Below are positions 11,001-24,694 of a DNA stretch of 28,881 bases, piece by piece. Position numbers and translations under genes: made by a program. The notes beneath the pieces are model-generated. The model saw only the letters and a list, made by a program, of their open reading frames with translations, did not search any database and was not told the origin of the DNA. The DNA is from a virus, in IMG/VR virus record IMGVR_UViG_3300013005_000126, positions 1-28,881 of that record; one strand, 5' to 3'. Numbering within the stretch: position 1 is the stretch's first letter; each line of letters opens with the position of its first letter.

Positions 11001-12716
11001 ATGAGTAATTTAAATGCAATTCAAAAGATCGTATCTTCGACTCAAGATAGATCATTCCAACTTTTAGAAGAATCTAAAGGATTGGTAAACAAATGGGGCA
11101 AAACAGGTTTATTAGAAGGTGTTGATAGCGAATACGAAAAAGCAAGTATTTCTATCTTACTAGAAAATCAAGCTAAGCAGTTAATTTCTGAAGCCAGTAG
11201 AACAGGAACCGCAGCAGGTTCAGAAGAATGGTCAGGAGTAGCCCTTCCATTAGTACGTCGTATTTTCAGCGAAATCGCTGCTAAAGACTTCGTTTCAGTT
11301 CAACCAATGTCATTACCTTCAGGTTTAGTATTTTATTTAGATTTTAAATATGGTACAAACAATGCTGGTTTTGCAACAACAAACACATCACAATTCCCTA
11401 GCCAAACAGGATACCAAAACAATTCAGTGTTTGGTATAACTAATACTGCTAGCGATCCTTCAGAAGGTCTTTATGGTGCTGGTAGATTTGGTTATTCAAT
11501 TAATTCAGTATCTAGTTCAGCATTAACTACAGGTTCAGCTCCGACATCAACTGCTTATGCGACTGGTTCAATTGTAGCGTCTGATTACAATTTTGATACT
11601 CGTTGGTTTAATACTTTCTCTGCTTCAATCGCAGCTGCAGCAACAACCGTAAGATCAATTACAGTTTCTTCTGCATCAATTCCTAACTTTGACACTGAAG
11701 GTGTAAGAGCATTCGTTATTTCTGCATCAAGCGGTACAGTTACTACTTTCCCTCAATTTACGAGAGTTAATAGTGATAGTTCATTAGTAACATTTATAGT
11801 ATCTGGTTCAACTCCTGCATCAGTAGGAACATCAAATTCTTTAACAGTATTTTATGATGTACAACCTACAGCAGCCGGTCGTGGTGATTTTGAAGCTGGT
11901 GCAGTTCCTCAAGGTTCTACCTCAGTTGATACAAATATCAACATCCCAGAAATTAACGTTGAATTACGTTCTGAGCCAATCGTTGCTAAGACTCGTAAAT
12001 TAAAAGCTATCTGGACTCCAGAATTTGCTCAAGATTTAAATGCTTACCACGCAATTGACGCTGAAGCTGAATTAACTTCTATGTTATCTGAATATATTTC
12101 TCAGGAAATTGACTTAGAAATCTTAGATATGTTAATCCAAAATGCAGTGACAGTTGATGCTTGGTCTGCAGTAATTGGTCGTTCAGTAGATGTAAATACA
12201 GTTGGTGGTACAGTAGTTCCTACTTCTTATTCAACAGATGCTACAACCGGTGCATTCTACAACCAAGGTACTTGGTTCCAAACTTTAGGAACTAAAATCC
12301 AAAAGGTATCTAACAAAATTCACCAAAAGACAATGCGTGGTGGTGCTAACTTCTTAGTTTGCTCTCCTGACGTTGCTACTATTTTAGAATCTATCCCAGG
12401 TTATGCTGCAGATACTAATGGTGATAAAATGCAATTTGCAATGGGTGTACAAAAAGTTGGTTTGATGAATAATCGTTTCCAAGTATACAAAAACCCATAC
12501 ATGTTGGAAAATACAATCTTAATGGGTTACAGAGGTACTCAATTCTTAGAAACAGGTGCGGTTTATAGCCCTTATGTTCCTTTGATTATGACTCCTTTAG
12601 TATACGATCCAAATAACTTTACTCCTAGAAAAGGTGTAATGACTCGTTATGCTAAGAAGATTGTAAGACCCGAGTTTTACGGTGTAATCAGAATTATGGA
12701 TTTAAATAGAATCTAA
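11001..12716 (+). CDS. gp23: Major capsid protein (T4 gp23-like)
   Basis: Forms the hexamers of the head shell. The 571-residue protein (T4 gp23 is 521) has an N-terminal region LVNKWGKTGLLEG (28-40) matching T4 LLNKWKPLLEGEG, then LVRRIFSEIAAKDFVSVQPMSLPSG corresponding to T4 MVRRAIPNLIAFDICGVQPM. I-S-E-A at residues 62-65 predicts cleavage after E64, almost exactly the T4 site (E65/A66). An inserted Ser/Thr/Ala-rich beta domain occupies about residues 130-300. Codons look more C- and G-containing than in neighbouring genes, as expected for a very highly expressed protein. It is followed by a strong terminator. Confidence 0.97.
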   Translation: MSNLNAIQKIVSSTQDRSFQLLEESKGLVNKWGKTGLLEGVDSEYEKASISILLENQAKQLISEASRTGTAAGSEEWSGVALPLVRRIFSEIAAKDFVSVQPMSLPSGLVFYLDFKYGTNNAGFATTNTSQFPSQTGYQNNSVFGITNTASDPSEGLYGAGRFGYSINSVSSSALTTGSAPTSTAYATGSIVASDYNFDTRWFNTFSASIAAAATTVRSITVSSASIPNFDTEGVRAFVISASSGTVTTFPQFTRVNSDSSLVTFIVSGSTPASVGTSNSLTVFYDVQPTAAGRGDFEAGAVPQGSTSVDTNINIPEINVELRSEPIVAKTRKLKAIWTPEFAQDLNAYHAIDAEAELTSMLSEYISQEIDLEILDMLIQNAVTVDAWSAVIGRSVDVNTVGGTVVPTSYSTDATTGAFYNQGTWFQTLGTKIQKVSNKIHQKTMRGGANFLVCSPDVATILESIPGYAADTNGDKMQFAMGVQKVGLMNNRFQVYKNPYMLENTILMGYRGTQFLETGAVYSPYVPLIMTPLVYDPNNFTPRKGVMTRYAKKIVRPEFYGVIRIMDLNRI

Positions 12717-12740
12717 TTCTAACTTAAAATAAAATAGAAG

Positions 12741-12767
12741 AAGGCAGAAGAAATTCTGCCTTTTTTT
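12741..12767 (+). terminator. Rho-independent terminator after the capsid gene
   Basis: AAGGCAGAA pairs with TTCTGCCTT (9 bp) around a GAAA tetraloop and ends in a run of seven Ts. It begins 24 bases after the capsid stop. Confidence 0.92.
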
Positions 12768-12845
12768 ATGTCCATACGCCCCAAAATATTAACGTATATG
12801 CATTATTTATTATAATCTATAATCTTATATTATATTAATATAAAC

Positions 12846-12859
12846 GTTCGTATACGAGC
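12846..12859 (+). promoter_or_regulatory. Near-palindrome with TCGTATACGA core
   Basis: GTTCGTATACGAGC contains the perfect palindrome TCGTATACGA (12848-12857) and is followed by ATC and seven Ts. It could be a short terminator-like hairpin (GTTCG, TATA loop, CGAGC) or a protein-binding site. The half-sites TCGTAT and ATACGA also occur, 7 bases apart, in the leader before the scaffold gene. The rest of 12768-12917 is AT-rich and must hold the phoH promoter, but I cannot place it. Confidence 0.35.
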
Positions 12860-12917
12860 ATCTTTTTTTATAATTACATTTATTTATACGTAGATATTTA
12901 TTATAAATTGTTATATT

Positions 12918-13586
12918 ATGAAAGAACCTAATCGTCAAAGAAAAACAGAAATTAAAGCAATTAATGCACTTCAACTAAACGAAGAACAAAAAGAAGCAAA
13001 GCGCTTAATTATTGAAAATCAAATAGTAGTTATAACGGGAAGAGCTGGGTCAGGAAAAAGTTTGGTTTGCGCACAAGCAGCATTGGATTTTTTAAAGAAA
13101 AAACAAGTAGAATGTATTTATAATACTAGAGCTGCTGTAGAAGTAGGAAAAAGTTTGGGATATTTACCAGGAGCATTAAGTGATAAGTTTGATCCTTATA
13201 TGGAAGCATTCATAGAAAATCTAAATAAATGTTGCACTGATAAAGAAGAAGTATCTAAATTAGCGGAGCAAGGAAAAATAAAAGCTTTACCTGTTCAATT
13301 TATTCGTGGCAAAACAATAGATGATATTTTAATTGTTGAAGAAGCCCAAAACTTAACTAAAGGGGAAATGTTGGCAATATTAACAAGATTAGGTAAAACA
13401 GGTAAGATTGTTATAAATGGAGATCATGACCAAATGGATATTAAATCTACGTCAGGCGAAATAAGTGGCTTAGATTTTGTAATTGAATTATCTAAACGAA
13501 TTGAAGAAATACAATGGATTAAATTAAAAGAAAACCATCGTTCTGATTTAGTAGGTAAGATTTTAAATTATGTATATAGTAAATGA
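12918..13586 (+). CDS. phoH: PhoH-like ATPase
   Basis: A P-loop ATPase of the PhoH family, related to the helicase core of RecD-like proteins and common in phages of aquatic bacteria; its role in infection is unsettled. The 222-residue protein carries Walker A GRAGSGKS (41-48), the family segment TRAAVEVGKSLGYLPG (70-85), Walker B ILIVEEAQN (137-145, with VEEAQ in place of the more usual DEAQN) and GDHDQMD, where the family usually has GDxxQxD. It stands alone after the capsid terminator and leads a small unit: its TGA overlaps the ATG of the next gene. Confidence 0.92.
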   Translation: MKEPNRQRKTEIKAINALQLNEEQKEAKRLIIENQIVVITGRAGSGKSLVCAQAALDFLKKKQVECIYNTRAAVEVGKSLGYLPGALSDKFDPYMEAFIENLNKCCTDKEEVSKLAEQGKIKALPVQFIRGKTIDDILIVEEAQNLTKGEMLAILTRLGKTGKIVINGDHDQMDIKSTSGEISGLDFVIELSKRIEEIQWIKLKENHRSDLVGKILNYVYSK

Positions 13587-13747
13587 CACTGTCTTTATTA
13601 AATAAATACGAGCTTCAAGTAGAAACTCCGAATAGAACAATTACAATTCAAATTCAAAGACCTAACTTAGATTATATAGATCGATATATAAAAAATTTAG
13701 TTGGCGAAAATATTACATATGATATCAAATACATAAAACAATTATAA
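13583..13747 (+). CDS. 54-residue unknown protein coupled to phoH
   Basis: Starts at the ATGA overlap with the phoH stop and ends at TAA 13745-13747, which overlaps the next ATG. The translation begins MTLSLLNKYELQVETPNRT and includes ITIQIQRPN, then DYIDRYIKNLVGE and ends KYIKQL: a strand-helix-strand pattern of a small folded protein. I do not recognise it. The two start/stop overlaps are the strongest evidence that it is translated. Confidence 0.65.
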   Translation: MTLSLLNKYELQVETPNRTITIQIQRPNLDYIDRYIKNLVGENITYDIKYIKQL

Positions 13748-13926
13748 TGATGATACCAGATAAAAAAATAGCCGATGCTTTAGAAGAAATGAAAAAACAA
13801 GGATTTGAATTGGGAAAAGTTTATTCTAATCCATATGCCAGAGCATTTAAACCTCAACAAGAAGAAGATTCTTTAATAATACAAAAATTAAAAGAGTCTG
13901 ATACTCAAAATATTAAAAGTTCTTAA
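13747..13926 (+). CDS. 59-residue unknown protein in the phoH unit
   Basis: Starts at ATG 13747, sharing an A with the preceding TAA; a second ATG at 13750 is an equally possible start. The protein is charged and helical (KKIADALEEMKKQGFELGKV) with a short SNPYARAFKP segment. No signal peptide or membrane segment is present and I do not recognise it. It completes a three-gene translationally coupled unit. Confidence 0.65.
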   Translation: MMIPDKKIADALEEMKKQGFELGKVYSNPYARAFKPQQEEDSLIIQKLKESDTQNIKSS

Positions 13927-13957
13927 TATCAATATTATAATTATATTTTCTAGTTAC

Positions 13958-13969
13958 CGATAATTATAT
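13958..13969 (+). promoter_or_regulatory. CGATAATTATAT upstream motif, copy 3
   Basis: Third exact copy of the 12-mer, here in a true intergenic gap 26 bases before the ATG at 13984. It starts the fibre-gene unit. Confidence 0.35.
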
Positions 13970-13983
13970 TAAAATAATAAAAT

Positions 13984-14379
13984 ATGGCAGCCGGAAAATA
14001 TAATTTTGTTATAGAGCAAGGAACTACAGTTGATTTCGAAATTCAATATAAAGATTCAAATAATAAACCTGTAGATTTAACTGGATATTATGGAAGATTA
14101 ATGATAAGATCTAATTTTGCAGATGACAATCCTACTACATATTTAGTATTATCTAGCTCAAGAAATCCAGATGGTACTGGATTAAATTTTAGTGGAAGTA
14201 ATGGCCAATTACCTCCTACAAGTGGGTCTATTGGAATTTATATTTCATCATGCACATCATCACTTCTTACATTTGTAACAGCTAGATACGATCTAGAAAT
14301 TTATTCTGGAAGTAACTGTCCATATACTGTAAGATTATTAGAAGGACAAGTTAATATAAGTAAAGAAGTAACTAGATAA
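13984..14379 (+). CDS. Small virion/baseplate-type protein upstream of the fibre
   Basis: A 131-residue, beta-rich protein opening AAGKYNFVIEQGTTVDFEIQYKDS, then NKPVDLTGYYGRLMIRSNF. This resembles, from memory, an N-terminal Ig-like/BppU-type domain found in many phage baseplate and fibre-associated proteins: a polymer-like ordering of an offset, linear term and DLTG turn. Its TAA overlaps the fibre ATG (TAATG), so both are made in a coupled fashion, which fits a fibre connector or baseplate attachment protein. The exact role is inferred. Confidence 0.7.
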   Translation: MAAGKYNFVIEQGTTVDFEIQYKDSNNKPVDLTGYYGRLMIRSNFADDNPTTYLVLSSSRNPDGTGLNFSGSNGQLPPTSGSIGIYISSCTSSLLTFVTARYDLEIYSGSNCPYTVRLLEGQVNISKEVTR

Positions 14380-16373
14380 TGAGTGTTAATATAAATACAT
14401 CAACTAATAACATTACAATAAATAACTCTGATAGAGTAATTACTGTAAATAATAACAATCAATCTACATCAGTAAACATTACTCAACCAATAACTGATAT
14501 TGTAACTGTAGCTACGATTGGTCCCCAAGGGCCTGTAGGTCCCCAAGGTCCTCAAGCTACAGTAAATACTAGTTCATTAGCAACAACAGGTTCAAATAAT
14601 TTTATTGGTAATCAAGTAATAACTGGTTCATTAGTTGTAACACAAGGAATAACAGGGTCTTTATTTGGTACGGCATCATTTGCTACCCAAGCATTAAGCT
14701 CATCATTTGCTAACAATGCTACAAGCGCCTCGTATGCATTAACTGCATCGTTTGCTTTAAATGGCGGAGGAGGTTCTTCTTTTCCATTTACTGGTTCAGC
14801 GATCATATCTGGTTCATTAGGCATTACAGGTTCATTAAACGTAACAGGCTCAATTAATGGTTTATTAATTAGTAGAGGAAATGGTAATATATCTACAAAT
14901 GTTTCAATTGGCGCTACAACTAATTTTAGTAGTTCAGCAACAGGTACTGATAATTTTGCAGCTGGATATTTAGCTTTATCTAAACTTACAACTGGAAATC
15001 ATAACACCGCAATAGGACACCAAGCTCTACGAAATAACTCAACCGGACGATTTAATACGGCAATTGGAAATGGTGCTTTACAAAATAACGAAACCGGAGC
15101 TTATAATACAGCAATTGGAAGAGAAGCTTTACATAACAACACAACCGGATATTATAATACAGCAATAGGAAAATATGCTTTATTTTCTAACTCAACCGGC
15201 TACAGTAACACAGCAATTGGAAATTTTGCTTTATATAATAACACAACCGGAGCCTATAACACAGCAATTGGATTTAGATCTTTACAATCTAACACATCCG
15301 GATCTAATAATACAGCAATTGGAAGAGAAGCTTTACGAAATAACACAACCGGTTCTCATAACACAGCGATAGGATATCGAGCTTTACGAAATAACTCAGT
15401 TGGGCCAGGATATACTTTTTATGGGTATACTTTTGGTTACATACCTGGAGCATACAATACAGCTATTGGAAGAAATGCTTTATATAGTAATATTTACGGA
15501 AGATATAATACCGCAATTGGAATGGGTGCTTTATATAGTAACACAACCGGAACCCATAACACAGCAATAGGAAGATCTGCTTTACAATCTAATACATTTG
15601 GAAATTATAATACAGCAATTGGGGTAGATTCTTTAAATAGTAACACAGGCGGAACTAATAATACAGCAATTGGTAGACTTTCATTATCCCTAAACACAAC
15701 TGGAAATTATAACACAGCAATCGGAAGACAAGCATTACGACAAAACACAACCGGAAGAAATAATACAGCAATCGGAGTATTTTCTTTATCATCTAACACA
15801 ACTGGAAATTATAACACAGCAATTGGAAATAGTGCTTTACTTTCTAACACAATCGGAACTAATAACACAGCAATTGGATATAATGCTTTAGTTTCTAACA
15901 CAACTGGTTCTAATAACATAGCATTTGGGTTATCCGCAGGTAGATTTATAGCGGACGGAGTTACAAATAATACAGTAACCAGCGCCTCAATATTCATAGG
16001 AAGAAATACAAGAGCATTAGCAAACAATCAAACAAACCAAATCGTAATCGGTGATAGCGCTATTGGTTTGGGAAGTAATACCGTTGTGTTAGGAGATACT
16101 AATATAACTACAACAGCATTAAGAGGTAATGTTGGTATTGGAAAAACAACACCTAATGCTCGTTTAGATGTTTCTGGAAGTGCAATTATATCAGGTTCTT
16201 TAACTGTAACTGGCGGCATAACAGGTTCATTATTTACTCCTATATCAGGTACATTTGTATTACCATTAACCGCGTCTATATTACCTAATATACCTACAGG
16301 TAGTGCTTATTGGAGTGGGTCATTTTTATTTGTATGGGACGGGACGCGACACAGAAGCTCTAGTTTTTTATAA
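14379..16373 (+). CDS. Tail fibre with collagen-like stretch and NTAIG repeat stalk
   Basis: A 664-residue trimeric fibre candidate that would contact the host surface. Order: Asn/Thr/Ile-rich N-terminus (1-46), collagen-like GPQGPVGPQGPQ (48-59), SFA/TASYA-type segments and GSLxVTGS repeats (about 80-165), then 17 copies of a 17-residue NTAIGxxALxxNTTG unit (207-516) resembling the YadA-like head beta-roll of trimeric adhesins. One copy is followed by a 15-residue insertion (343-357). After the repeats come an IGRNTRALANNQTNQIVIGD segment, VGIGKTTPNARLDVSGS, and a final FVWDGTRHRSSSFL. I see no S74 intramolecular chaperone domain at the C-terminus. Confidence 0.88.
   Translation: MSVNINTSTNNITINNSDRVITVNNNNQSTSVNITQPITDIVTVATIGPQGPVGPQGPQATVNTSSLATTGSNNFIGNQVITGSLVVTQGITGSLFGTASFATQALSSSFANNATSASYALTASFALNGGGGSSFPFTGSAIISGSLGITGSLNVTGSINGLLISRGNGNISTNVSIGATTNFSSSATGTDNFAAGYLALSKLTTGNHNTAIGHQALRNNSTGRFNTAIGNGALQNNETGAYNTAIGREALHNNTTGYYNTAIGKYALFSNSTGYSNTAIGNFALYNNTTGAYNTAIGFRSLQSNTSGSNNTAIGREALRNNTTGSHNTAIGYRALRNNSVGPGYTFYGYTFGYIPGAYNTAIGRNALYSNIYGRYNTAIGMGALYSNTTGTHNTAIGRSALQSNTFGNYNTAIGVDSLNSNTGGTNNTAIGRLSLSLNTTGNYNTAIGRQALRQNTTGRNNTAIGVFSLSSNTTGNYNTAIGNSALLSNTIGTNNTAIGYNALVSNTTGSNNIAFGLSAGRFIADGVTNNTVTSASIFIGRNTRALANNQTNQIVIGDSAIGLGSNTVVLGDTNITTTALRGNVGIGKTTPNARLDVSGSAIISGSLTVTGGITGSLFTPISGTFVLPLTASILPNIPTGSAYWSGSFLFVWDGTRHRSSSFL
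14997..15908 (+). repeat. Tandem 51-bp repeats coding for the NTAIG stalk
   Basis: Seventeen in-frame 51-base units; units 1-8 occupy 14997-15404, a 45-base insertion 15405-15449, and units 9-17 15450-15908. Every unit keeps an AAcACaGCAATtGGA-type core while other positions vary. A degenerate 18th unit (NNIAFG) follows. Confidence 0.95.
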
Positions 16374-16469: not shown

Positions 16470-17045
16470 ATGATAACAACTTCAAGTCATTTATTTAATG
16501 GCGAAACTTTAACAAATAAAAAATTAGTTGTATCATTTAAAGCATTTCCGATAAAATTTATAAAACACATATTTTTTTGTGTTCTTTTATTATTTTCATT
16601 TTCTTTTTTAAAAGCGCAAACAATATTTATTGAACCAGTATTTAATAATATTAAAGTAGGGGCTTTTGAAGGAAATAAAAACCTTGCCTTCGGCGTAAAA
16701 AATATCATTGAGGAATTAATCAATGAAGGGGATAGTTTATCCTTAATTGCAGATATCAATTCTGCTGTATATCGATTACAAGTCGAACTTATCTTTTTTG
16801 ATATAGTAACGACAAATTCAGGTATCGGTATTTTCCATGAAGACAAAGTAACAACCATTATTAGGATGAAAGGCATCTTATATAAAGGCAACAAAAAAAT
16901 CAAGCAAGTATATTCTGAAGGTAAGTCTACTGAAATATCGACCTCTACTTTAATCGTTGATGAAGGCGGGAATTTTAATCAACAATCTGCTAGTTCTGCT
17001 ATCAAAAAAACAACCCAAACACTTATAACTAAATTAATGCAATGA
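16470..17045 (+). CDS. Exported protein of unknown function, periplasm or outer membrane
   Basis: A 191-residue protein with a hydrophobic segment (about 33-47) and a K-A-Q junction at 48-50, a Bacteroidota-style signal peptidase site. The stretch before it is unusually long for a signal peptide (about 32 residues), yet no other ATG, GTG or TTG in frame offers a later start. The mature part (AFGVKNIIEELI, YRLQVELIFFDIVT, then TTIIRMKGILYKGNKKIKQ) has an alpha/beta pattern like the CsgG/LpoB type of periplasmic fold, but I cannot assign a family. Its TGA overlaps the ATG of the T9SS-cargo gene, so the two are coupled and may work together. Confidence 0.7.
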   Translation: MITTSSHLFNGETLTNKKLVVSFKAFPIKFIKHIFFCVLLLFSFSFLKAQTIFIEPVFNNIKVGAFEGNKNLAFGVKNIIEELINEGDSLSLIADINSAVYRLQVELIFFDIVTTNSGIGIFHEDKVTTIIRMKGILYKGNKKIKQVYSEGKSTEISTSTLIVDEGGNFNQQSASSAIKKTTQTLITKLMQ

Positions 17046-18949
17046 AAAAATTAATCTTTATCATTATCGGAGTGCTATTTACCATCTCCGGTTTTACCCA
17101 GGAAATTGGTAACTTCCAACAATTAGCTACGATAAAAAGAAATGACACAATTGATATAATCTTTCAGTATAAACCAGATACTACAAAAGATATTAGATCA
17201 TTTCAAATCGACTTTCAATTTAAAAAAGAATTATTAACGCATGTATCTACTACAGTTGATAATATTGTAAGTACGATGACCCCTGCAATATCATACAATG
17301 AATTTGACAATTACAAGTATGATTCGTATAATTCAGCCACAGGCGTGTATAATTATACTACGGATACTAATTGGACCGTTTCTAGAAATTATTTATTATT
17401 ATCAAGCGGTAATAAAATAATAAATGATATATACATTATACATAATAAATTTATTATTAATAATGTTCGTCCGAACTTTGATGAAGATAGCGTACATGTT
17501 AATTGGGCTAGATTATTTAAAAAGGACGGTACATCTATTGGAGATAATGTAGCTACATTAACATACAAGAAAATGGACTTAGAATTACTAGGTAACTTAG
17601 TTATTAGTGGTAATGTAGAATTACCTCCGACAATGAAAGGAAACGGAAAAAGACCTACAGTAATTTGTACTAAGTTAAATACAGGCCAATTTGTTTCATC
17701 AGCATTGTGTGATACTGCAGGTAATTATTCTTTAATTAATGTAGATAAAAATACTAAATATAAATTATTATTAAGATTCCCAATCGACAGTATGGAAACC
17801 TTCCGTGATTATGCCGTGACAATATCAGATGCTGTTAAAACATATGACGAATTTACATTAACAGACGTTAATCAAAACTATTCTAAGCAGTATTTAAAAT
17901 ATGGGTTATCTTATTTAATTGCTGATATGAATCAAAATGGTAAGCTTGATGGTGGTGATCCTTATTTAATTTATGCTAATGTAAGTGGATTACAAAAAAT
18001 AAATACATCTACTATGATAAGAACATTCCATGCAAATACATATGATTCATTAGTTTTAGGCGCTAATCAATGGAATGAATGGGCTAATTACTTAACTGCT
18101 TCTGATTTTATTACTGATACTATTAATACGACAAATCTTATTGTTAATATTAAATACTTTATACAAGGAGATGTTGATAGAACTTATTCATCTAGAATAT
18201 GGAATAATTCAGGCGCTATAGTTGCAAACGCAGTATTTAAAGGACGATTAGACGTTGACATACCAAATACCTATGCAGCTGGAAATCAGCCCTTATACGT
18301 GCCGTTTAATATAAATACAAACGGAGATAATAACTATGGTCTACAGTTTGAAATGAAGTATGATAAAGATAAAGTTAAGTTCGAAGAAATTATATCTAAC
18401 TTTAATGGAGGTCCTTGGTTACAATATGTTACGCATGACGAAGCAGCAGGGACTATTAGATTTGGCGGTATGAATAATCAATTTAAAAATGGTCTAAATG
18501 GACAAGCTACGCCATTTAAACTTAGATTTTCACCTGTAGGTAACTCTGATATCGTATCTAATATACAAGTAAGACAATTAATGGATGCTTCTGATGAAAA
18601 TGGAGATCATTTAAATATTAACTTAACTAATCAAATAGCTGTTTTAATGTATAAAAAAGCACCATCAATATCAGCTCCTTTAGAAGAAATAACAGCATCT
18701 ATCAGACCTAATCCAACAACAGGATGGTTTGAATTAGAAGTTAAATTCCCTGAGCCAGATATGGCAATGAATGTATCTATATATGATGTTAAAGGCAGAT
18801 TAGTACAAAATGCAGGAACAGTTGAAACTAACCTTACTGAAACAATTGCATATAAGCAAATTGACTTAACATCAGCAACAAACGGTAATTATTATTTAAT
18901 ACTAAATAATTATAATAAACAATTAACTAAACAATTTATAAAAGTGTAA
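17042..18949 (+). CDS. Multidomain secreted protein with a T9SS C-terminal sorting domain
   Basis: A 635-residue exported protein. Residues 1-20 are a signal peptide ending GFTQ. About 25-175 look like a cohesin-type beta sandwich (IKRNDTIDIIFQYKP). About 185-250 are a carboxypeptidase-regulatory-like sandwich (VISGNVELPP ... DTAGNYSLINV). Residues 294-316 are dockerin-like (ADMNQNGKLDGGDPYL). About 390-535 form a second cohesin-like sandwich. The last 85 residues carry the type IX secretion sorting domain: SIRPNPTTGWFELEV, VSIYDVKGRLVQ, IDLTSATNGNYYLIL, KQFIKV. In Bacteroidota that domain directs transport across the outer membrane and surface anchoring or release. Coupled to the preceding gene. 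Residues 294-379 are homologous to the C-terminus of the 22940 gene product. Confidence 0.88.
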   Translation: MKKLIFIIIGVLFTISGFTQEIGNFQQLATIKRNDTIDIIFQYKPDTTKDIRSFQIDFQFKKELLTHVSTTVDNIVSTMTPAISYNEFDNYKYDSYNSATGVYNYTTDTNWTVSRNYLLLSSGNKIINDIYIIHNKFIINNVRPNFDEDSVHVNWARLFKKDGTSIGDNVATLTYKKMDLELLGNLVISGNVELPPTMKGNGKRPTVICTKLNTGQFVSSALCDTAGNYSLINVDKNTKYKLLLRFPIDSMETFRDYAVTISDAVKTYDEFTLTDVNQNYSKQYLKYGLSYLIADMNQNGKLDGGDPYLIYANVSGLQKINTSTMIRTFHANTYDSLVLGANQWNEWANYLTASDFITDTINTTNLIVNIKYFIQGDVDRTYSSRIWNNSGAIVANAVFKGRLDVDIPNTYAAGNQPLYVPFNINTNGDNNYGLQFEMKYDKDKVKFEEIISNFNGGPWLQYVTHDEAAGTIRFGGMNNQFKNGLNGQATPFKLRFSPVGNSDIVSNIQVRQLMDASDENGDHLNINLTNQIAVLMYKKAPSISAPLEEITASIRPNPTTGWFELEVKFPEPDMAMNVSIYDVKGRLVQNAGTVETNLTETIAYKQIDLTSATNGNYYLILNNYNKQLTKQFIKV

Positions 18950-18952
18950 ACT

Positions 18953-19297
18953 ATGAGCGACGAATCAAACGTACCAGAATCAGACGGAACTTGGTCTGGA
19001 TTAAAGAAAACAATTATCACAACAATTTCAACGGCAGTATTAGCTGGCGGTGGATGGTTGACTACAACATTATTTAATGGCGGTGGAGAAGAAGTAAAAG
19101 AATCAGCACCTATGCAACAAGCTGCTCCAGTAATAAATTTAAATGTTGATAATTCATCACAAAACAATTCATCTAATAATGGCGGCGGTACAACCACAAT
19201 CATTAAAGAAAAAGTAATTGAAAAGCCGGTTATAAAAGAACCTGCTAAAACTAAAAAAGAAGGCGACGAATTTAAAGAAAAGGAGCCACTATGGTAA
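18953..19297 (+). CDS. Small single-span membrane protein in the lysis cluster
   Basis: A 114-residue protein with a polar acidic N-terminus, one membrane segment (about 18-40, KTIITTISTAVLAGGGWLTT) and a hydrophilic Asn/Gly- then Lys/Glu-rich tail (IIKEKVIEKPVIKEPAKTKK). No signal peptidase site. It overlaps the two-span holin candidate by 7 bases and lies two genes before the endolysin, so a lysis-regulating role (antiholin or holin partner) is a reasonable guess but not shown by any motif. Confidence 0.65.
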   Translation: MSDESNVPESDGTWSGLKKTIITTISTAVLAGGGWLTTTLFNGGGEEVKESAPMQQAAPVINLNVDNSSQNNSSNNGGGTTTIIKEKVIEKPVIKEPAKTKKEGDEFKEKEPLW

Positions 19298-19866
19298 ACA
19301 ATCAACCAACAGGATTTAAAGATCTTCTTAGCTCAATGATGAAAAGAAGATGGTTTATAACTGCTATTGTATTAGGCGGTTTTATGTTAATAATGGGAGG
19401 TATATTTCTTGCTATATTTAAAAGTAATGAAATTAGTGGAGAATGGAAAGAATTATTACTTCTTTTATTAGGAGCATTTATTGGCTCTTATGGTAAAATT
19501 ATTGATTATTGGTTTAGCGATACTGATAAAGATAAGATGCTAGTTCAAAAAATGGACGAAGAAGATGGAATGACATTATCGAGTACTTTAGATATGCCTC
19601 CGCCGACACCAGCACCGACACCTAAAGTTGACCCGATTATTACCCCAACTATAACACCTCAACCAACAGAAAAAGTAGGTGTAGAAGTAGATGAAGATGG
19701 TGATGGGATAATGGATGGTTTAGATTTTGACGGAGATGGTATTATTGACGAATATTTTGCTCATAGACAATGTGAACATGTATGGGGCGATTTAGATGGC
19801 GATGGTATAGAAGAATGTTTAAAGTGCGGTAAAATAAAAGACGAAGAAGCTGAACAAGCAGGCTAA
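19291..19866 (+). CDS. Holin candidate with calcium-loop and Cys/His tail
   Basis: A 191-residue protein with two membrane segments (about 21-43 and 52-68), the usual make-up of a small phage holin, placed 17 bases before the endolysin gene. Unusually it continues for about 115 residues: a Pro/Thr linker (103-126), calcium-loop repeats DEDGDGIMDGLDFDGDGIID (134-153) and DLDGDGIEE (167-175), and C161-x-H163...C176-x-x-C179, a possible zinc site. By the family role it would form membrane lesions that release or activate the endolysin; the tail could sense divalent cations. The holin call rests on topology and context. The start overlaps the preceding stop, and GGAG lies a few bases upstream, the only Shine-Dalgarno-like stretch I noticed. 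Confidence 0.7.
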   Translation: MVNNQPTGFKDLLSSMMKRRWFITAIVLGGFMLIMGGIFLAIFKSNEISGEWKELLLLLLGAFIGSYGKIIDYWFSDTDKDKMLVQKMDEEDGMTLSSTLDMPPPTPAPTPKVDPIITPTITPQPTEKVGVEVDEDGDGIMDGLDFDGDGIIDEYFAHRQCEHVWGDLDGDGIEECLKCGKIKDEEAEQAG

Positions 19867-19883
19867 AATTAAATAAAAATATT

Positions 19884-20720
19884 ATGTTACTAAAAAAAGG
19901 AGATAACAACGAAAACGTAAAGTTAATGCAGCAAAAATTAGGCATCGAACCTGCTGTAACTAGCTTTGGACCTAAAACAGAAGCCGCTGTCAAAGCTTGG
20001 CAAGCTGCTAATGGGTTAACAGCTGATGGTATTGTAGGCCCTTCGACTTGGGCAAAGATAATGGGAGAAGGAGTACCTAAACCTGTAGCACCTGCTAAGT
20101 CGGTAGCCACTGTTAGCGGATTAAAATTAGATAAGTTAAAAGGACATATTCCTGAATCTGTAATTCAAATGATTCCAGATACAGCAGCAAAGTTTCAAAT
20201 CAATACACCATTAAGATTGGCGCATTTCTTAGCTCAATGCGGACATGAAAGTGGAGGCTTTAGAGCAACTCAAGAAAATTTAAATTATTCAGCTAAAGGA
20301 TTAAATGGTATATTTAGAAAATATTTCCCATCTGAAGCAGCTGCAGCATCTTATGCTAGAAATCCTCAAAAGATTGCTAATAAAGTATATGCAAGTAGAA
20401 TGGGTAATGGAAATGAAGCTAGCGGAGAAGGATTTAAATTTAGAGGAAGAGGCTATATACAATTAACAGGAAAAGAAAATTATACTGCATTTGGTAAAGC
20501 AATTAACGAAGATATATTATCAAATCCTGATAAAGTAGCTTCTACTTATGCTTTATTATCTGCTGCTTGGTTTTTTTCTAAAAACGGGTTACATAGAATG
20601 GCTGATGAAGGAGCAACAGATGCAGTAGTTACTAAAATTACTAAAAGAGTAAATGGCGGTACTATTGGATTGGCAGATCGAATCAAGCATTTTAAAGAAT
20701 ATTATCACTTATTAAGTTAA
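19884..20720 (+). CDS. Endolysin: peptidoglycan-binding domain plus GH19 glycosidase
   Basis: Cuts host peptidoglycan at the end of infection. The 278-residue protein starts with a PG_binding_1 domain (1-60: LKKGDNNENVKLMQQKLG ... FGPKTEAAVKAWQ, DGIVGPSTW), followed by a glycoside hydrolase family 19 (chitinase-like lysozyme) domain (about 85-278). Key features are AHFLAQCGHESGGF with predicted catalytic E122, a second acid E131 in ENLNYSAKGL, and FKFRGRGYIQLTGKENY. It has no signal peptide, so export should depend on a holin, which fits the gene just upstream. A terminator follows the stop. Confidence 0.94.
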   Translation: MLLKKGDNNENVKLMQQKLGIEPAVTSFGPKTEAAVKAWQAANGLTADGIVGPSTWAKIMGEGVPKPVAPAKSVATVSGLKLDKLKGHIPESVIQMIPDTAAKFQINTPLRLAHFLAQCGHESGGFRATQENLNYSAKGLNGIFRKYFPSEAAAASYARNPQKIANKVYASRMGNGNEASGEGFKFRGRGYIQLTGKENYTAFGKAINEDILSNPDKVASTYALLSAAWFFSKNGLHRMADEGATDAVVTKITKRVNGGTIGLADRIKHFKEYYHLLS

Positions 20721-20733
20721 TAAGTTTTAATAT

Positions 20734-20763
20734 AAAGCCCTTACATTTTGTGAGGGTTTTTTT
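20734..20763 (+). terminator. Rho-independent terminator after the endolysin
   Basis: AAAGCCCTTACA pairs with TGTGAGGGTTTT (12 positions, two of them G-T) around a TTT loop and runs into a seven-T tract. It begins 14 bases after the endolysin stop. Confidence 0.9.
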
Positions 20764-20790: not shown

Positions 20791-21513
20791 ATGAAAAAAT
20801 TATCTTTATTAATAAGTTTCTTTTTATTAAGCAGCATTATAGTTAATGCTCAAACAATAGGTAAAACTCAAACAGAACAATATAAAGCTTCTTTTGAAAC
20901 GGGAGTTAATATTGATTCATTAATGGATTATAATGGTCCGCAAATACCTATTCAAATATTAAAAATTGGTATTAGTGATGAAGTATATGAACAATATCCT
21001 GAACTTAAAGAAAAGAAAGTAGGATTAGGTGTTGCAAATATTACATTAGAGTATTTAGAAAATTTAAATAGATTTACATTTACTGAAGACAAAACAGAAA
21101 TAAAAAATAGAATGGTTAAGCAATACCAAGCATCGAAGGCTGGTATTTCAGCAGATACCTTAGATGGTAAAGGTAAAATTCGTTTAGCTCATTATTTTGT
21201 TACAGTTGAAGTATATGATTTTTCTATTAGCGAAGACGAAACTGTAAATTTAAGTAACGGTGTAAAAAATAAAGTTGTTACGAGATTAGGTCTGCAAGTT
21301 AGATTTACAGACGCAGAAACAAATCAAATTATTGCTGCTAGTGGATTAGGAGAAGCAATTACAGTAAGAGAATTAAGTTTGTTGAATAATGATAATTTAA
21401 GTGATGTTAAATTTAATCAATCGACAATAGGTATAAGTACTAAAAAAGCATTAGATATTGCATGTTCTAGAATTCTTCTAAGAATGATTAAAAAGGGAGT
21501 TTTTCCAAAATAA
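20791..21513 (+). CDS. CsgG-like exported protein
   Basis: A 240-residue protein with a signal peptide (1-20, ending VNA-Q). The mature part follows the CsgG/curli-assembly pattern: KKVGLGVANITLEYLENLNRF (75-95) like the conserved start of the CsgG fold, a helix with KTEIKNRMVKQY, AHYFVTVEVYDF (133-144) in place of the D-Y-L-V-x-G-x-V/I-x-x-F strand, and RLGLQVRFTDAETNQIIAASG (165-185). CsgG forms an outer-membrane export channel for curli subunits. CsgG itself is a lipoprotein; here no lipobox cysteine is present, so anchoring must differ or the protein is periplasmic. It lies between two terminators, hence its own transcript. Fold call is from pattern; channel function is not shown. Confidence 0.7.
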   Translation: MKKLSLLISFFLLSSIIVNAQTIGKTQTEQYKASFETGVNIDSLMDYNGPQIPIQILKIGISDEVYEQYPELKEKKVGLGVANITLEYLENLNRFTFTEDKTEIKNRMVKQYQASKAGISADTLDGKGKIRLAHYFVTVEVYDFSISEDETVNLSNGVKNKVVTRLGLQVRFTDAETNQIIAASGLGEAITVRELSLLNNDNLSDVKFNQSTIGISTKKALDIACSRILLRMIKKGVFPK

Positions 21514-21563: not shown

Positions 21564-22943
21564 ATGAAAATAAGTAGTATTAAACAAATTTTATTGGTAT
21601 GGTTTATTACGCTTTTTTGTAATATAAGTCATGCACAAATATCCACATATACATTTATCGACCCATGTACTAAAGAAGTAACAAACTTTAGTATACCTTT
21701 ACAAGGTGGCAAAACAATGTTTATCTTTTTAGATAATGTTAATTATTTTGATGCAAATGATTTAGCAAACGGCACCTTTGCAAATTGGGTAAATCAATCC
21801 TATAAAAAATACAGACTAACAAATCCATGTTCGCAACAACAAGGCCAAGTAACCCAAAATCAATTAACGACGCAAATAATAAGCGGAACAGTTCAGTCTT
21901 TGGTAAGTTCGATATTATCAAGTAACCAATCTCAATCATCTAGCACTGAAAGTAGTAGCGCATCTGGAAACGGTAATAATAGTTCTGAAAATAAAGATAA
22001 TAAAAGTTCGGAAAAAACATCTTCATCTCAAACTACAGGAGAACAGCAACAACAACAATCAACTACGGGAAGTAATAATGGGCAAGGGGGCGGTTCATCA
22101 TCTGGAGGTTCATCATCAGGTAGCGGCACAGGTAAAACATCAGGACAAAATGGTACAGGTACTGGGTCAGATAAAGATAATTCTTCTAAACAAGAAAATG
22201 GTGAAGAAGTAGGGGCTACGATTGCTATGAATACTGATGCTCAAAATGATAAGGGTGGAAGTAAAGGTTCTTCGGGCAGAGCAGGTAATTCGAGATCTAA
22301 TCCATTAATAGTGTCTTCCGACATTACTTCAGCACAAAATTTAAATGGGACATTTACTGCTATTGTTAATGTCGGTACAAATAAATCATCAATGACTGGA
22401 TTATCAAGTTATGGAGTAACGGGGATGGTATGGATGAACTTTAGACAATTTGCTATATCAACTAAGTATACTAAGATACATTTTAATAAATCTAAAAAAA
22501 TAAAATTCATTCATAACTTTAATTTAACGGGTGTATATACATATGAAAATTACTTAGGATTCATAGGTTATAGCGGCATAATGAATGGAGGTAAATATGG
22601 TATTGCGGGATTCAATATAAGTGCAGCAGCGACTGTAATAGCTATGGAAAAGAGCGGATATTATTCTCCATCGATTACGGGATTTTATACCAAACCTTTT
22701 AAAGTAGGCAAGAAAATTATAGTTTCTCCAGAATTATATATTATATCAACACCACTAATTTATTCAACAAAAGAAAGAGTTTCAATATCCGATAGATATA
22801 TTAGCGGATTTGTGGGAAGTGGATTTGATTATCAAATATCTAAAAGATTTAAGGTAAATTTAAATTATAAGGCAAATATGAGTACTAACCCAGATTTCCC
22901 TATATTATCATTTTTCTTAATCGGAAGTAAAGTTAATTTATGA
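21564..22943 (+). CDS. Outer-membrane beta-barrel candidate with low-complexity linker
   Basis: A 459-residue exported protein. Residues 1-25 are a signal peptide (ending SHA-Q). Residues 26-95 are a compact domain with two cysteines (FIDPCTKEVTNFSIPLQGGK ... LTNPCSQQQ). About 105-235 are a Ser/Gly/Asn/Gln linker with no predicted structure. About 245-459 look like an outer-membrane beta-barrel: alternating hydrophobic and polar strands rich in Tyr, Gly and Lys (KIKFIHNFNLTGVYTYENYL, GFVGSGFDYQISKRFKVNL), ending in a strand FFLIGSKVNL. It overlaps the lectin-like gene by ATGA. The CsgG-like gene just upstream, also exported, suggests a shared envelope function. The barrel call is by pattern only. 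Confidence 0.65.
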   Translation: MKISSIKQILLVWFITLFCNISHAQISTYTFIDPCTKEVTNFSIPLQGGKTMFIFLDNVNYFDANDLANGTFANWVNQSYKKYRLTNPCSQQQGQVTQNQLTTQIISGTVQSLVSSILSSNQSQSSSTESSSASGNGNNSSENKDNKSSEKTSSSQTTGEQQQQQSTTGSNNGQGGGSSSGGSSSGSGTGKTSGQNGTGTGSDKDNSSKQENGEEVGATIAMNTDAQNDKGGSKGSSGRAGNSRSNPLIVSSDITSAQNLNGTFTAIVNVGTNKSSMTGLSSYGVTGMVWMNFRQFAISTKYTKIHFNKSKKIKFIHNFNLTGVYTYENYLGFIGYSGIMNGGKYGIAGFNISAAATVIAMEKSGYYSPSITGFYTKPFKVGKKIIVSPELYIISTPLIYSTKERVSISDRYISGFVGSGFDYQISKRFKVNLNYKANMSTNPDFPILSFFLIGSKVNL

Positions 22944-24694
22944 AAAATTTAGTTGTATTTTTGTTAATTTTTTTGCCGTTTCTAGGAATTTCACAATCAG
23001 TGAATTCTCCTTCGGCATCTTCATACAGCCAAAATACAGCTAATCAATTAGTTTCGGGATTTTCATTATCAAATTTTAATTTGAGCTCGACATTATTAGT
23101 TACGATTGGATTAGTAAATCCTCCGATAGGTACAACATTAAGATTAAACGTAACAAGCAATGTTACTGCAAGTACGGGATATTCACTTACGTCTAATTTT
23201 ACTCGCGTTAGTTTTACCGGCACACAAGCTAATATAAATACAGTGCTTTCTTCTTTACGCATTAACACAGGGTCAGCTCCTGGCAATGTTTATATTGCTG
23301 TAACAGCTACTGTTAATCCTACTGGTTATTTTTATTTTCCGCCTAATGGTCATTTTTACAGACCTTTAACTTGGCCAGCTGGAGCTAGTTATACGGGTAC
23401 GAGTAGTAATGTATATACAAATATTAAAACATTAGCATCTCAACAAAGTTTTAAAGGGCAATTGGGTTATTTATTAACTATCACTTCTCAGGACGAACAA
23501 AACTTTGTTCAAGCAAATGTACCTGGTAATAATATTTTATTTGCTTTGACAGATGCAGGTCAAGAAGGCAGATGGAGAATTGATGCCGGCCCAGAAAATG
23601 GCACTATAATAAAAACAAGTAATTCAGGCGGACTTGTAGCTGGAAAATATAATAATTGGTGTAGTGGCGAACCAAATAACTGGGGGTCGGGTGAAAATTA
23701 TGCCGTTACTAAATGGGGTGGAGGTAATTGTTGGAATGACTTTGGACCACCTGCTTCTTCATTTCCTGGTTCAGTCAGTGGATATGTTGTTGAATACGGA
23801 ACATGGTCAGATCCTGCAGACCAAACCTTTACAGATTTTTATACTGGATTTGTAACGCATCAAATTTCATGTACTGCATTACAAACACCTAATTCTCCGA
23901 CTGCTGTTAATAATTCTAGAACAAGTCCAGGGCCTGTTACATTATCTGCTACTGCTACCTCGGGCCAAACTATAGATTGGTATGCTAATCCTTTTGGAGG
24001 AAATCCAATAGCAACAGGTACTTTTTCATATACTACACCGTCAATATCAACTACAACAAAATACTATGCCCAAGCAAGAAATATAACTACGGGCTGTTTA
24101 AGTAATACTAGAACTGAAGTAACAGCATCTATAGGTATTAGTGAAAAAATAACTGGAGTAGTTAAAATACCTGTAGGGCTAGTTAACAGACCAATTCTTA
24201 AACTTTATATTGTAGAAGGCGGTATAGAAACATTAATCGAAACTGTAACTGTAAATTCTGACGGAACATATACATTAAGTCCGACAAAGCATAATGTAAC
24301 ATATAAAATTATTCCAGAGTTTAATTTATATTCATTATCTTTAACTGATTTTAATAATGTTTTTTCTGAAGCACGTAATCAAAATACACCTAATAATTTA
24401 CCAATTGGCTTAGTTTTAAATAATGGATTAAAGTTAAAAGCCGGAGATATTGATAATAACGGATATATTAATATTGCAGATGCGTATCTTATAGGCGCTA
24501 ATTTAACTGGTATGGTTTTATTTAAAAAAGTATTGTGGTTTACAGCATCCAACTATGATTTAATTAACATAGTAAATTTTAATACTATCCAATCTCAAGA
24601 ACATTTTACTATTAATTTTACAACTACAAATATAGTTCTTAACATAAAATATATTATTAAAGGAGATGCAGATTTATCGTCATCATCTAATTAA
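22940..24694 (+). CDS. Secreted C-type-lectin/Ig/dockerin-like protein, apparently C-terminally truncated
   Basis: A 584-residue exported protein. Signal peptide 1-19 (GIS-Q). Residues 30-125 are a beta-rich domain. About 130-287 are a C-type lectin-like domain: ALTDAGQEGRWRIDAGPENG, NNWCSGEPNNWGSGENYA, CWNDF and GYVVEYG. About 315-395 are an Ig-like domain ending in Cys (TKYYAQARNITTGCLS). About 400-460 are a carboxypeptidase-regulatory-like sandwich. Residues 503-525 are dockerin-like (GDIDNNGYINIADAYLIGAN). Residues 503-579 match residues 294-379 of the 17042 product, which then continues into a cohesin-like domain and a T9SS signal; this protein stops ten residues after GDADLSSSSN begins. 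Carbohydrate or surface binding is the likely role. Coupled to the preceding barrel gene. Confidence 0.82.
   Translation: MKNLVVFLLIFLPFLGISQSVNSPSASSYSQNTANQLVSGFSLSNFNLSSTLLVTIGLVNPPIGTTLRLNVTSNVTASTGYSLTSNFTRVSFTGTQANINTVLSSLRINTGSAPGNVYIAVTATVNPTGYFYFPPNGHFYRPLTWPAGASYTGTSSNVYTNIKTLASQQSFKGQLGYLLTITSQDEQNFVQANVPGNNILFALTDAGQEGRWRIDAGPENGTIIKTSNSGGLVAGKYNNWCSGEPNNWGSGENYAVTKWGGGNCWNDFGPPASSFPGSVSGYVVEYGTWSDPADQTFTDFYTGFVTHQISCTALQTPNSPTAVNNSRTSPGPVTLSATATSGQTIDWYANPFGGNPIATGTFSYTTPSISTTTKYYAQARNITTGCLSNTRTEVTASIGISEKITGVVKIPVGLVNRPILKLYIVEGGIETLIETVTVNSDGTYTLSPTKHNVTYKIIPEFNLYSLSLTDFNNVFSEARNQNTPNNLPIGLVLNNGLKLKAGDIDNNGYINIADAYLIGANLTGMVLFKKVLWFTASNYDLINIVNFNTIQSQEHFTINFTTTNIVLNIKYIIKGDADLSSSSN

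Follow-up and report, generated by a model that had tools for sequence, protein, structure and literature searches.

The window analysed in this study is the whole of a virus record, 28,881 bases in length. Genes for terminase, portal, head maturation protease, major head protein and PhoH are located upstream of the main gene (17042-18949) and a head-tail adaptor gene lies downstream, in agreement with the preliminary description, which had placed it among phage genes and coupled it to its upstream neighbour. The coupling was found as an ATGA overlap between the main-gene start and the upstream stop, and the next gene starts 3 nt past the main-gene stop. At 14379-16373 the window also encodes a tail-spike/fibre-like protein with many TGxxNTAIG repeats, resembling trimeric-adhesin head repeats. 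The features of the locus are given below, and genes are referred to by their first coordinate; L numbers designate related loci.

16470-17045, + strand: upstream coupled gene (4-nt overlap) for a secreted 191-aa protein, a probable distant CsgG-like relative (hhalign to the 20791 family 81%, E 1e-5); present in 22 of 22 contigs
17042-18949, + strand: main gene, for a 635-aa cohesin-scaffold protein with a Sec signal peptide and a T9SS type A sorting domain (profile searches, alignment, structure model; full-length orthologs in 22 viral contigs)
17042-17101, + strand: signal peptide, residues 1-20, MKKLIFIIIGVLFTISGFTQ (from sequence; pattern kept in 16 orthologs; hydrophobic segment 1-22)
17129-17611, + strand: N-terminal beta domain, about residues 30-190 (strands at moderate pLDDT; a separate gene, gp014, in phage immuto)
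17924-17959, + strand: EF-hand/dockerin-like loop DMNQNGKLDGGD, about residues 295-306 (from sequence; D295, N297, D303, G304, G305 and D306 invariant)
18245-18661, + strand: cohesin domain, residues 402-540 (VIA comparison with 4uyp_C; cohesins among the top Foldseek matches)
18689-18946, + strand: T9SS type A sorting domain (CTD), residues 550-635 (PF18962, TIGR04183, AlphaFold2, conservation, dN/dS, host matches)
18953-19297, + strand: small protein with one moderately hydrophobic stretch, below the hydropathy threshold; comes after the CTD gene or the lipoprotein gene in related loci
19291-19866, + strand: two-TM inner-membrane protein (TM 20-45 and 55-71, by hydropathy) with an acidic, D-rich and Cys/His tail and holin-like topology
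19884-20720, + strand: endolysin, peptidoglycan-binding plus GH19-type (PF01471, PF00182; phrog_181, E 2.8e-72)
20734-20760, + strand: terminator-like hairpin directly 3' of the endolysin gene (weak evidence: 6 sites found against 3.0 expected)
20791-21513, + strand: CsgG-like secreted protein, the most conserved cassette gene (best Foldseek match CsgG 4uv2, E 6e-4, model pLDDT 44)
21564-22943, + strand: secreted protein with a low-complexity linker and a presumed outer-membrane beta-barrel C-terminus, about residues 247-459 (by sequence pattern only); conserved in the cassette
22940-24694, + strand: secreted C-type lectin/Ig_7 protein with a dockerin-like module at its end (Ig_7, E 1.5e-16; Lectin_C-type profile, E 1e-13)

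The signal peptide of the main protein, which had been proposed earlier together with cohesin/dockerin-like domains, was read from the sequence, and its pattern (MKK, a hydrophobic core and FAQ, FSQ or YSQ) was kept in all 16 aligned orthologs. The cohesin half of the proposal was borne out and the dockerin half was not. The cohesin fold of residues 402-540 aligned to 4uyp_C with a VIA Z score of 14.3 and an rmsd of 2.7 over 136 residues. PF00963 gave a weak match on the window protein (13.7 bits against a cut-off of 24.1, E 0.07), and the Pfam cohesin model was above cut-off in the relatives L001, L106, L098 and L067. Instead of the two F-hand repeats of a dockerin, a single EF-hand-like loop was present; Dockerin_1 (PF00404) was not reported by Pfam for the window proteins, and was below cut-off in the relatives (best 15.8 bits against 22.9, E 0.016, in L003; E 0.05 in L061). 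The region of this loop was modelled by AlphaFold2 at pLDDT <50, and the middle of the protein was poorly modelled. The dockerin-like part of the main protein is putative. The N-terminal beta domain (residues ~30-190) may possibly be a second cohesin-like domain.

The T9SS type A sorting domain expected at the C-terminus was recovered with both curated models: PF18962 matched residues 556-633 at 35.1 bits (E 1.7e-8; gathering cut-off 27), and TIGR04183 matched residues 556-634 at 27.6 bits (E 2.1e-6; cut-off 23). The main gene gave the sole PF18962 match in the whole window. The C-terminal sandwich that had been suggested as a structural check was also predicted, as AlphaFold2 placed seven strands within residues 551-634 of 635 at pLDDT 86-89, the same number as described for the RgpB CTD (PMC4804311). 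A search of related phages, also suggested previously, detected PF18962 above cut-off at the main-gene ortholog in 23 of 23 ortholog-carrying records (22 viral contigs and the phage immuto), with a second, sub-cut-off match elsewhere in one of the 22 contigs. Of 50 additional records with a 20791-family gene, 20 also had the domain above cut-off, and both it and cohesin were above cut-off in the distant L106. A generic CTD query against deposited phages (tblastn) returned one unannotated record, which says little about prevalence.

Among 18 domains, down to 22% identity, the residues PNP, D..G, G.Y.L and T..F.K were invariant or near-invariant. These are the residues that dominate known type A tails. 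The CTD is under purifying selection, with dN lower than dS in 10 of 10 pairs. A chance match and an Ig-like virion domain were both rejected in view of the curated cut-offs, the conservation and the signal peptide. The location of the main gene, between the tail-spike-like gene and the head-tail genes, might suggest a tail or fibre protein whose Ig-like C-terminal domain resembles a T9SS tail, but this is highly improbable: the signal peptide is conserved, both curated HMMs were passed, and in immuto the cassette comes after nuclease and nucleotide-metabolism genes.

Full-length orthologs of the main gene were found in 22 IMG/VR contigs of up to 311 kb, at 53-77% identity. The same run of genes (16470, 17042, 18953, 19291, 20791, 21564 and 22940) was present in these 22 contigs; the genes flanking the cassette in the window had no nearby counterparts there. 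At least 386 viral relatives were found for the 20791 family, but just 2 matches in 84,980 cellular species genomes; each of the two lies on a phage-like contig, together with a phage-type endolysin and genes of the cassette. A diverged and rearranged cassette was found in the cultured Flavobacterium phage immuto, where gp015 comprises a signal peptide, cohesin and sorting domain, both domains being above cut-off; the N-terminal half of the window protein has its counterpart in gp014. Because of this correspondence, the window gene is apparently a fusion of gp014-like and gp015-like genes. As the cassette recurs in viral contigs and a cultured phage and is nearly absent from cellular genomes, there is good support for the earlier claim that the main gene belongs to the phage rather than being a stray piece of host DNA, and host contamination was rejected on the same grounds.

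Host genomes were searched with the main protein in 101 genomes of the genus of a Flavobacterium MAG. Seven of these matched it, at the CTD alone (residues 540-634), and each of the three matches that were inspected had a signal peptide and a C-terminal tail. Outside the CTD, no match was found in the 101 genomes except on the phage-like contig of the MAG itself. The sorting domain is the sole part of the main protein that matches genuine host proteins. SprA_N was present in 61 of 61 genomes of this genus, which is named as the host genus of immuto. The resemblance of the CTD to host tails would also be expected if a host T9SS adhesin had been acquired by chance, as an ordinary moron with no specific function. 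This is hardly credible, however, given that the rest of the protein lacks a cellular homolog in these genomes apart from the phage-like contig, and that the gene is conserved at full length with six neighbours in the 22 contigs and is under purifying selection.

The other cassette genes encode predicted envelope proteins. The 20791 protein may have a CsgG-like fold, a low-confidence assignment based on the structure model. It had no Pfam CsgG match, and its signal ends in NAQ, without a lipobox Cys. Searched against the sequences of solved structures, the 20791 family profile gave chance-level matches only and the 16470 family profile gave no match. A relative of the 19291 protein matched phrog_38564 (function unknown) with E 3e-7. 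The tail of the 19291 protein combines a D-rich, calcium-binding-like repeat with a Cys/His motif; in L058 and L059 this C-terminal half alone remains, as a separate ORF. The cassettes of these two loci (L058:6016-6761 and L059:9186-9928) have apparently decayed, with a truncated 16470 homolog (64 aa) and no CTD gene between this homolog and 20791. The N-terminal binding domain of the 22940 lectin protein was swapped between phages (C-type lectin/Ig_7 in the window, GEVED in L019:12981-14084), and the dockerin-like end was kept. In L057, a 148-kb viral contig, a TonB-dependent-receptor-like protein is encoded near the cassette (12688-15171), with Plug, carboxypeptidase-regulatory and OMP_b-brl_3 domains all above cut-off.

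The main functional rival to surface display is a role at the lysis stage, in which proteins of the inner membrane, the periplasm, the outer membrane and the cell surface would jointly disrupt the envelope, with the T9SS protein as the surface element. This competes with the display reading on purpose and is compatible with the T9SS route. The endolysin gene of the window is located within the cassette, before the terminator-like hairpin, and an endolysin homolog was present within the fetched locus for 22 of 52 dereplicated loci, at several positions and in both orientations. For the CsgG of phage Melnitz, too, a part in lysis has been suggested (PMC9004378). However, no homologous endolysin was nearby in the other 30 loci, and the annotated endolysin of immuto lies ~6 kb beyond the cassette. 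The swapped lectin/GEVED domains and the cohesins, moreover, suggest binding and not breakage, and a joint lysis machine is considered less likely than not. Small proteins, probably with two TM segments, were observed near the cassette at L061:7553-7834, L069:9625-9879 and L088:12542-12820, directly before the endolysin in L088, and are candidate holins.

Among the relatives found through the 20791 family, the slot directly before the 18953 homolog was filled in two ways. Type A loci encode one large protein with a fused tag, and in type B loci one or two untagged large proteins, whose ends resemble the cohesin region, precede one or two lipoproteins of ~110-126 aa. Lipoproteins and untagged large proteins were equal in number in all dereplicated loci counted (49 of 49): 21 loci have one tagged protein and no lipoprotein, 20 have two untagged proteins and two lipoproteins, and 8 have one of each. 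The count was made by a script whose plain motif criteria for tag and lipobox were set once the pattern was already known from these loci, so it describes a regularity among the fetched loci and does not amount to an independent test. Since there is one lipoprotein for each untagged large protein and none when the tag is fused, the tag and the lipoprotein look interchangeable. At least four switches between the two states were counted on the 20791 tree, in which the long branches L001 and L106 meet and the root state is unsure. As the large cohesin proteins of type B lack a tag, the cassette does not need the T9SS in general. The idea that type B marks a host without T9SS was unsupported: the type B locus L105 is on a contig binned with the SprA-bearing Flavobacterium MAG, the binning of a phage contig being weak host evidence. 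Many type B2 loci (L055:7300, L061:4917-5816, L077:7044) encode an additional protein of ~297 aa between the large proteins and the lipoproteins; it has NFQF at its end and no Pfam match, and is presumed to be an outer-membrane barrel.

Many of the lipoproteins have Lys or acidic residues right after the Cys, and in about one third of them positions +2 to +6 include two acidic residues. The surface-export signal of Bacteroidetes lipoproteins is C-X-K-(D/E)2 (PMC5080379), and the resemblance of the lipoprotein N-termini to it is suggestive only. In L079, L080, L083 and L084 a CTD-like domain was detected within a 116-aa lipoprotein (hhalign 97.5%, E 8e-12), where it cannot act as a normal export tag for the large protein. 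A CTD common to all type B lipoproteins was not supported, as the match was confined to the L079/L080 and L083/L084 type; the others gave hhalign probabilities of <3%, some with weak PF18962 scores.

Because some cassette lipoproteins carry such a domain, a CTD-like domain alone does not prove T9SS export. The CTD might descend from a T9SS tail and now be an interaction domain in a phage envelope complex, in which case export, if any, would go through the CsgG-like and barrel proteins of the phage and would not depend on the host T9SS. The occurrence of the homologous domain in lipoproteins at the same cassette position, its complete replacement by other lipoprotein families, and the constant proximity of CsgG-like and barrel genes are all in keeping with this scenario. 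It nevertheless seems unlikely in view of the T9SS hallmark residues, which are near-invariant in the fused form and lost in most lipoproteins, and of the placement of the domain, invariably at the very C-terminal end of a protein with a signal peptide.

The reading preferred here, with a probability of roughly 0.7, is that the main protein is a cohesin-type scaffold exported by the host T9SS to the surface of the infected cell, where it would alter what sticks there around lysis. The protein would enter the periplasm via Sec; the host T9SS (SprA translocon and PorV shuttle) would then recognise the C-terminal type A domain and carry the protein across the outer membrane. Export by this route for surface display is likely. 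The protein would stay on, or be released from, the surface of the infected cell, and its cohesin might there hold partners, probably including the 22940 lectin protein via its dockerin-like end. Together with the CsgG-like proteins, the inner-membrane pair and the presumed outer-membrane barrel, it would make up a cassette-encoded envelope complex and form its outer part. The most likely purpose would be a changed stickiness of the infected cell, by which other phages are blocked, or cells and debris tethered, around the time of lysis. The roles named in the preliminary description, superinfection exclusion, aggregation and polysaccharide binding, are guesses. A wider generalisation, put forward tentatively and at somewhat below even odds, is that many Bacteroidota phages have a mobile, phage-specific display system for cohesin/lectin scaffolds, which switches freely between two routes for getting to, or staying on, the outer surface: the host T9SS (fused tag) and a phage-encoded lipoprotein partner with an export-signal-like N-terminus.

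If this is true, remodelling of the infected cell's surface by phages through a host secretion machine would represent a little-explored layer of phage-host and phage-phage interaction. It is testable, as immuto, a cultured phage that infects a Flavobacterium strain, has the same cassette, and T9SS genetics are available in F. johnsoniae. The one-for-one replacement by lipoproteins gives a handle on what use the sorting domain has for the phage.

Proteins with a T9SS type A sorting domain were described in Cryophage by Bellas et al. 2020 (PMC7468147), who proposed use of the host system. Their cargo consists of variable-island enzymes (endoglucanase, GH39) and a PA14 protein, whereas in the window it is a cohesin scaffold in a cassette conserved across many phages. 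Proteins with the sorting domain, encoded near BACON ORFs, were also reported by de Jonge et al. 2019 (PMC6949934) in crAss-like relatives; the proteins and their context differ from those of the window, and the parts of that report consulted mention no CsgG-like cassette. Pelagimyophages and phage Melnitz carry a curli-like operon (CsgG, CsgF and others) of unclear purpose (PMC7029224, PMC9004378). They share with the window a CsgG-like gene in a cluster of envelope proteins, but their hosts are Proteobacteria and no T9SS cargo, cohesin or lectin is reported for them; conversely, no CsgF was identified in the window, and its CsgG-like protein differs in having no lipobox Cys. With host type A cargo (RgpB CTD, PMC4804311; PorV-dependent substrates, PMC12618676) the main protein has in common the Sec signal, the seven-strand Ig-like CTD and similar conserved residues, but it is encoded by a virus and no cellular homolog of its remainder was found. 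No report of CsgG together with T9SS cargo, of this cassette or of the lipoprotein exchange was found in the searched literature, most subscription papers and preprints lying outside the search. The cassette and the exchange between tag and lipoprotein appear to be new, whereas T9SS cargo in phages was already reported in 2019-2020. A further close counterpart is the same cassette in Immutovirus immuto (gp013-gp019, NC_055915), where gp014 and gp015 stand apart as two genes that appear to have been fused in the window; the products are annotated only as hypothetical, lectin and cohesin proteins.
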